In this document: positions 14,961-15,480 of the stretch, piece after piece
Layout of the letters: the number at the start of each line of letters is the position of its first letter
How positions within the stretch are numbered: the first letter of the stretch is position 1
Assembly (NCBI GenBank): GCA_021789935.1
Contig: JAJYIR010000020.1
Span: 1-45,616, forward strand
Length of the DNA: 45,616 nucleotides
From: Nitrospirota bacterium
GTDB lineage: Bacteria; Nitrospirota; Thermodesulfovibrionia; Thermodesulfovibrionales; JdFR-88
Direction: 5' to 3'
Translations under genes and position numbers: made by a program
The notes under the pieces: generated by a model
Seen by the model: the letters and a program-made list of their open reading frames with translations, nothing else
Told to the model about the DNA's origin: nothing
Databases searched by the model: none

Positions 14961-15081
14961 ACAAAAAGACAAAACAAAAACAGGGATTTTTTCTTTTTTC
15001 CTTCAAAACCCCCTCATTATGTGATATATGTAGCTTAGTAAACGGCTCAAATTAATTTTCCCAAAAGGAGGATGTATATTT

Positions 15082-15363
15082 ATGGCGGTAAAGAAAGCTG
15101 GCGCAAAGGGGGCGAAGGCCCCGCAGGCAAGGGCCGCGAAAAAGACCGTCGCAAAAAAGCCGGCCAAGGCGGTGAAGGCGGTTGCCAAGCCCGCTAAGAC
15201 GGCCGCGAAAAGACCAGCAGCAAGAGCCGCGAAAAAAGCAGCTCCCCAGGAAGCGGGCCGCTTCGGCTGCGAGGTTTGCGGTCTCATGGTCTCCGTGGAC
15301 GAGTGGGGCGAGATGAATGTTGTGAACCTTATCTGCTGCGGAGAGCAGATGCAGCCTGTCTGA
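15082..15363 (+). CDS. Histone H1-like tail fused to a desulforedoxin-type FeCys4 domain
   Basis: Residues 1-57 are almost only Lys, Ala, Pro, Arg and Val in KPAKA/AAKK-type repeats, like bacterial H1-like nucleoid proteins. Residues about 60-93 match desulforedoxin: Cys63-x-x-Cys66 in GCEVCG and adjacent Cys85-Cys86 in ICCGEQM, the spacing and CCGE signature of the FeCys4 site in desulforedoxin and in the N-terminal domain of desulfoferrodoxin. GGAGG at 15067-15071 gives ATG 15082 a strong start. It is monocistronic between the ABC exporter and the convergent nuo operon, and is followed by two hairpins. Expected to bind nucleic acid and to hold iron or zinc; both are inferences from composition and motif. 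Confidence 0.85.
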   Translation: MAVKKAGAKGAKAPQARAAKKTVAKKPAKAVKAVAKPAKTAAKRPAARAAKKAAPQEAGRFGCEVCGLMVSVDEWGEMNVVNLICCGEQMQPV

Positions 15364-15368
15364 ATAAA

Positions 15369-15467
15369 CACCGGGTCTCGCCAGGGAAACAGGGCAGAGT
15401 TTTTTTAAGAGCAAAGCGGAAAGCAAGACTCTGCCCTTTCGCACTGCGGGGCTCCCGGTGTGCTTTT
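15369..15467 (+). terminator. Nested hairpin terminator after the H1-like gene
   Basis: CACCGGG (15369-15375) pairs with CCCGGTG (15454-15460), followed by TGCTTTTTT. Inside it GGGCAGAGT (15392-15400) pairs with ACTCTGCCC (15428-15436). It lies between two convergent transcription units and may stop both. Confidence 0.65.
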
Positions 15468-15480
15468 TTGCTTCCGGGTG

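Follow-up and report, generated by a model that had tools for sequence, protein, structure and literature searches.

A histone H1-like basic tail joined to a desulforedoxin-fold domain in a small protein family of Nitrospirota

Desulforedoxin of D. gigas is a dimer, and to our knowledge no desulforedoxin-type domain occurs in proteins of the Hc2/AlgP type. The classical desulforedoxin arrangement of cysteines is C-x2-C-x15-CC (PMC3116461). The same source (SORGOdb) describes HTH-Dx-SOR superoxide reductases, in which a DNA-binding-type part (HTH) stands ahead of the desulforedoxin domain in one chain, a precedent for joining such a domain to a DNA-binding part. Bacterial H1-like proteins such as Hc2 (PF07382) and AlgP carry Lys/Ala/Pro-rich low-complexity tails, and AlgP of P. 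aeruginosa, which has a tail of KPAA repeats, associates with polyphosphate granules (PMC9239181). Archaeal Cren7/Sul7 and their zinc-chelating relatives are small chromosomal proteins built from a metal-binding ribbon domain (PMC5906684). WhiB4 of M. tuberculosis is a cysteine-metal protein with sequence-independent, thiol-oxidation-controlled DNA binding; its apo form, when thiol-oxidised, makes disulphide-linked oligomers that bind DNA (PMC3438311).

The protein described here differs from each of these. HTH-Dx-SOR proteins have a folded HTH and end in a superoxide reductase domain, whereas our protein has a basic tail predicted to be disordered and no such domain. Compared with Hc2 and AlgP, the tail is N-terminal and short. 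Cren7/Sul7 belong to another fold lineage and another domain of life and are described as contacting DNA through their folded domain, while WhiB4 has an unrelated fold and a 4Fe-4S cluster. Bacterial H1-like proteins and desulforedoxins are each already known, but their combination in one chain is apparently undescribed: we found no description of it in the curated families or open-access literature searched, papers that mention desulforedoxin included.

The gene lies at 15082-15363 on the plus strand of the window, by which we mean the whole 45,616-nt stretch of DNA that was analysed, in a genome of 2.47 Mb. The open reading frame begins with ATG and encodes a 93-aa protein (MAVKKAGAKGAKAPQARAAKKTVAKKPAKAVKAVAKPAKTAAKRPAARAAKKAAPQEAGRFGCEVCGLMVSVDEWGEMNVVNLICCGEQMQPV). 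As the preliminary description had proposed, it has a strong ribosome binding site of its own, AAAGGAGGA at 15065..15073 (plus strand), ahead of the ATG; most orthologues are likewise preceded by a strong site. Its likely own promoter (15002..15030, plus strand) consists of TTCAAA (15002-15007), a 17-nt spacer and TATATG (15025-15030) with a TG extension. This promoter is absent from the list of a generic consensus scan and is kept in 6 of 6 clade members (window gene counted), 41-62 nt ahead of the ATG, with one member reading TTTAAA; these include members with a different upstream gene, which is an ABC transporter in one genus and LpxI in another. Downstream, a nested hairpin (15368..15461, plus strand), with an inner 13-bp stem within an outer 14-bp stem, is followed by U6 (15464-15469) and is a probable terminator (folding of 15364-15475, –48.6 kcal/mol, z = –3.6). 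The double terminator reported earlier is better read as this one nested hairpin with its U-run. The terminator rule of the scanner did not flag it, and a search for the hairpin as a repeat family gave no further copy in the genome, bar a 24-nt partial match. Opposite-strand overlapping ORFs (15003-15371 and 15052-15444) were taken as frame artefacts. The gene is real, having a ribosome binding site, its own sigma-70-type promoter, a 3' hairpin and orthologues under purifying selection.

Some family members have short palindromes upstream, such as CCGCT...GGCGG in a number of f13 genomes. They stand after a TATACT-like –10 box and ahead of the ribosome binding site at L074, L075, L083, L092 and L094 (f13) and also at L062, L065, L066, L071 and L086, and their sequences differ. 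A structured 5' leader or RNA element was rejected, since members fold no better than controls (Mann-Whitney test, P-value 0.69).

We surveyed Nitrospirota genomes with a domain-only profile, because the tail would otherwise have been built into the search. Among 396 Nitrospirota genomes this profile gave 36 matches with E < 2e–14, and generic desulforedoxins appeared at E > 6e–5. Within the order the family is patchy, being found in 38 of 176 genomes (40 copies); its weakest member scored E = 4.6e–12 and the next match 6.9e–5, and family and ordinary desulforedoxins are more than seven orders of magnitude apart in E-value. A further family within the class contributes two copies, which brings the total to 42 copies in 40 Nitrospirota genomes. 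An earlier whole-protein contig search had found only one relative and was weak because its unaligned peptide patterns took in the tail. No family members were found in plasmids, phages or viral contigs. On one contig (G032:C49, locus L078) the tailed gene occurs twice, at a distance of about 2.4 kb, and a cytochrome P460 gene lies just upstream of the first copy.

All 42 copies have the N-terminal basic tail (each sequence inspected; L076 scored after start-site correction). The proposed joining of an H1-like tail to a desulforedoxin-type domain is therefore real and conserved in orthologues, and the idea that the tail might vary freely and be absent from some of them did not hold, as its charge is constant. 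In the window protein, the tail comprises residues 1-59 (15082..15258, plus strand), is Lys/Ala/Pro-rich with a histone H1/Hc2-like composition, and is predicted to be disordered. Its residues 1-60 include 19 K+R and 1 D+E, and 93% of them are K/A/R/P/T/V/S/G. Among neighbouring ORFs, a 57-aa stretch with K+R ≥ 15 and D+E ≤ 2 occurs in just 5 of 451; this rarity, with both parts kept in orthologues, speaks against a chance combination. Across the family the tail spans 22-74 residues with a net charge per residue of +0.23 to +0.40 (36 members); sequence and length drift among orthologues, and the charge stays. Comparison of the window gene with its G002 orthologue gave dN 0.10 and dS 0.45 for the tail (dN/dS ∼0.23, every K/R kept) versus dN 0.013 and dS 0.72 for the domain (dN/dS ∼0.02). 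The tail evolves faster than the domain, yet under purifying selection. Pfam HC2 (PF07382) matches 10 of 37 family members (best E = 3.6e–6) but not the window protein at E 0.1, and NCBIfam histone H1-like models match the tails of several members. The long Lys/Ala-rich low-complexity basic region typical of Hc2 is present in the window protein and in all members alike. Weak matches to triosephosphate isomerase, beta-lactamase and the like were discarded as low-complexity matches, and no DNA-level tandem repeats were found within the tail. At L087, a 1030-aa minus-strand ORF begins with a Lys-rich basic segment of 57 residues that resembles the family tails.

The desulforedoxin-fold domain covers residues 60-93 (15259..15360, plus strand), with C63, C66, C85 and C86 spaced C-x2-C-x18-CC. 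Residues 60-91 match Pfam Desulfoferrod_N (PF06397) with E = 1.3e–4 and 22.0 bits, below the gathering cut-off of 23; the TIGR00319 score of 12.8 is also below its cut-off (36.05), and among PDB sequences D. gigas desulforedoxin scores best, though only with E = 0.081. The four metal-ligand-type cysteines (CxxC...CC) are invariant throughout an alignment of 37 sequences and in another 5 members; within the alignment the invariant positions are C63, C66, G67, V72, D73, C85, C86 and M90. An extra Cys-x-Cys sits in the middle loop of 34 of the 42 copies, and these 6-Cys relatives have x19 in place of x18. Six copies, from the genus of the window and a neighbouring one, have WGE/WGD at this place and are one residue shorter there, the window's clade having lost the pair; a further two copies, from f13, are without one or both extra cysteines.

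We also modelled the window protein and a 6-Cys relative (L062) as monomers with AlphaFold2. Confidence was moderate (mean pLDDT about 60; about 60-88 by block in the domain), and the tail came out unstructured at low confidence. With either model, each of the top six Foldseek matches in the PDB was a desulforedoxin or a desulfoferrodoxin; the window model matched desulforedoxin (1dxg) with probability 0.92 and TM 0.70 by target. VIA-align superposed 36 of 36 residues of the L062 model on 1dxg at 1.0 A with Z 4.4, a value that is low because the domain is small, and gave no unrelated chain above Z 2.2. Sequence and models together support a desulforedoxin-type fold. Like D. gigas desulforedoxin (1dxg) and the desulfoferrodoxin N-terminal domain (PF06397), the family has four cysteines (CxxC...CC), the same fold by prediction and a core of similar size. 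The family differs from both in having x18/19 not x15, the N-terminal basic tail, no superoxide reductase module and, in most members, the extra CxC, with the window member under the Pfam cut-off. We therefore rejected desulforedoxin proper as a class, since spacing (CxxC-x15-CC is not found in the window protein) and family cut-offs fail despite the agreeing fold; the best name is a desulforedoxin-fold, H1-tailed family. The desulforedoxin domain of the preliminary description, with a putative FeCys4 site, is supported by the CxxC...CCGE motif and the predicted fold, but the spacing differs and the scores fall below the curated cut-offs.

In the same order we found a second family with the parts reversed: an N-terminal Cys4 domain (CxxCG...PIYCCG) precedes a basic tail of H1-like type at the C-terminus, as at G055:C25:44533-44664 and G035:C2:112501-112632. 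A domain-only search places it in about 36 of 176 genomes. We read 22 loci (L115-L134, L099 and L100), representing 21 distinct genes (L099 and L115 are one and the same). The tails are Lys-rich, with 28-62 residues of which 10-24 are basic, in all loci read but L100, whose tail is weaker (13 basic in 53 residues). Pfam barely recognises the Cys4 domain, and its relation to desulforedoxin, suggested by CxxCG...CCG, is a lead. Both families occur together in 12 genomes (7.8 expected, P-value 0.07). Since one family has its tail at the N-terminus and the other at the C-terminus, the pairing of parts probably arose twice; Cys4 domain and basic tail seem to have been joined more than once.

Neighbouring genes of the tailed gene are conserved within genera only. 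In genus g78 (L067, L080) it follows a ferritin-family gene at a distance of 41-102 nt and closely precedes a RidA-like gene (assigned by eye), and in genus g12 it adjoins a PfpI-type gene. Co-occurrence gave no support to superoxide reductase as a partner: PF01880 is present in 11 of 38 tailed genomes versus 15.3 expected (Fisher test, P-value 0.14) and in none of the 12 genomes that make up the window's family, its own genome included. Rubrerythrins are uninformative because they are nearly universal, 174 of the order's 176 genomes having them.

We put at roughly 0.5 the probability that the product is a stand-alone H1-like nucleoid-type protein with a metal-Cys4 core, probably dimeric, which binds a polyanion, most likely DNA. 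Gene, both parts, their strict linkage and the conservation of the Cys4 site are directly observed, and the fold is predicted. The disordered tail would hold polyanions by charge, with chromosomal DNA the likeliest by analogy with Hc2 and AlgP (PMC9239181). The core would bind one metal, Fe or Zn, on its four cysteines and probably pairs two chains as D. gigas desulforedoxin does, so that each particle would have two tails and could bridge or coat DNA. The gene's own promoter and the lack of neighbours conserved across genera fit a general chromosomal protein. Against this reading, tails of low complexity can attach to RNA, polyphosphate or membranes as well. With four HU/IHF-family genes in the genome there is no need for another nucleoid protein, the family has a patchy distribution, and the AlphaFold model is a monomer of moderate confidence.

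As the preliminary description suggested, the binding might in addition be gated by redox state or iron, metal loss or cysteine oxidation shifting the oligomeric state and hence DNA binding. WhiB4 offers an analogous precedent for metal or thiol control, the Cys4 site is invariant in 42 copies, the additional Cys-x-Cys would provide spare thiols close in sequence, and the lineage is of anaerobe type with its rubrerythrins. However, no Fur/PerR-type operator was recognised upstream by eye, no regulator is conserved as a neighbour, Cys4 sites this small are often merely structural, and the window's clade, being without the extra pair, argues against a 6-Cys switch as the common function; we regard gating as tentative and on balance doubtful. 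Rather unlikely is a tail aimed at another polyanion, which would make this a protein that binds RNA, ribosomes or polyphosphate. Ribosomal and RNA-binding proteins often contain small metal-Cys4 domains, and in composition the tail is similar to those of AlgP and other proteins that bind polyanions generally, but no neighbourhood is conserved and hence none with translation or polyphosphate genes. Less probable again, the tail could park an electron-transfer or oxidant-scavenging centre on the chromosome for protection, with unregulated binding. In superoxide reductase proteins, sites of the desulforedoxin fold act as one-electron carriers, and the ferritin-family and RidA-like genes of g78 lie nearby; the absence of a constant redox partner, with the PF01880 counts given above, speaks against it. 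An ordinary desulforedoxin, donating electrons to superoxide reductase and carrying an incidental low-complexity extension, agrees with fold and Cys motif but is strongly disfavoured, because the tail is never lost, ordinary desulforedoxins of related genomes (L067 minus strand, L097) are 38-39 aa without it, and the window protein's own genome was found to have no superoxide reductase and no canonical desulforedoxin domain elsewhere.

More speculatively, and improbably on present evidence, the two separately assembled Cys4-metal, H1-tailed families could together build, in this Nitrospirota order, a chromatin layer gated by metal or thiols, in which a small metal-bound dimer coats DNA, and metal loss or Cys-x-Cys oxidation would yield larger DNA-condensing assemblies that protect the chromosome in oxygen or metal stress. 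Overall, the reversed second family suggests that these bacteria benefit from a metal site tied to DNA-like polymers. Together with a tail never lost across the order, it opens the question whether bacteria wire such a site to chromatin to a direct test on two small proteins.
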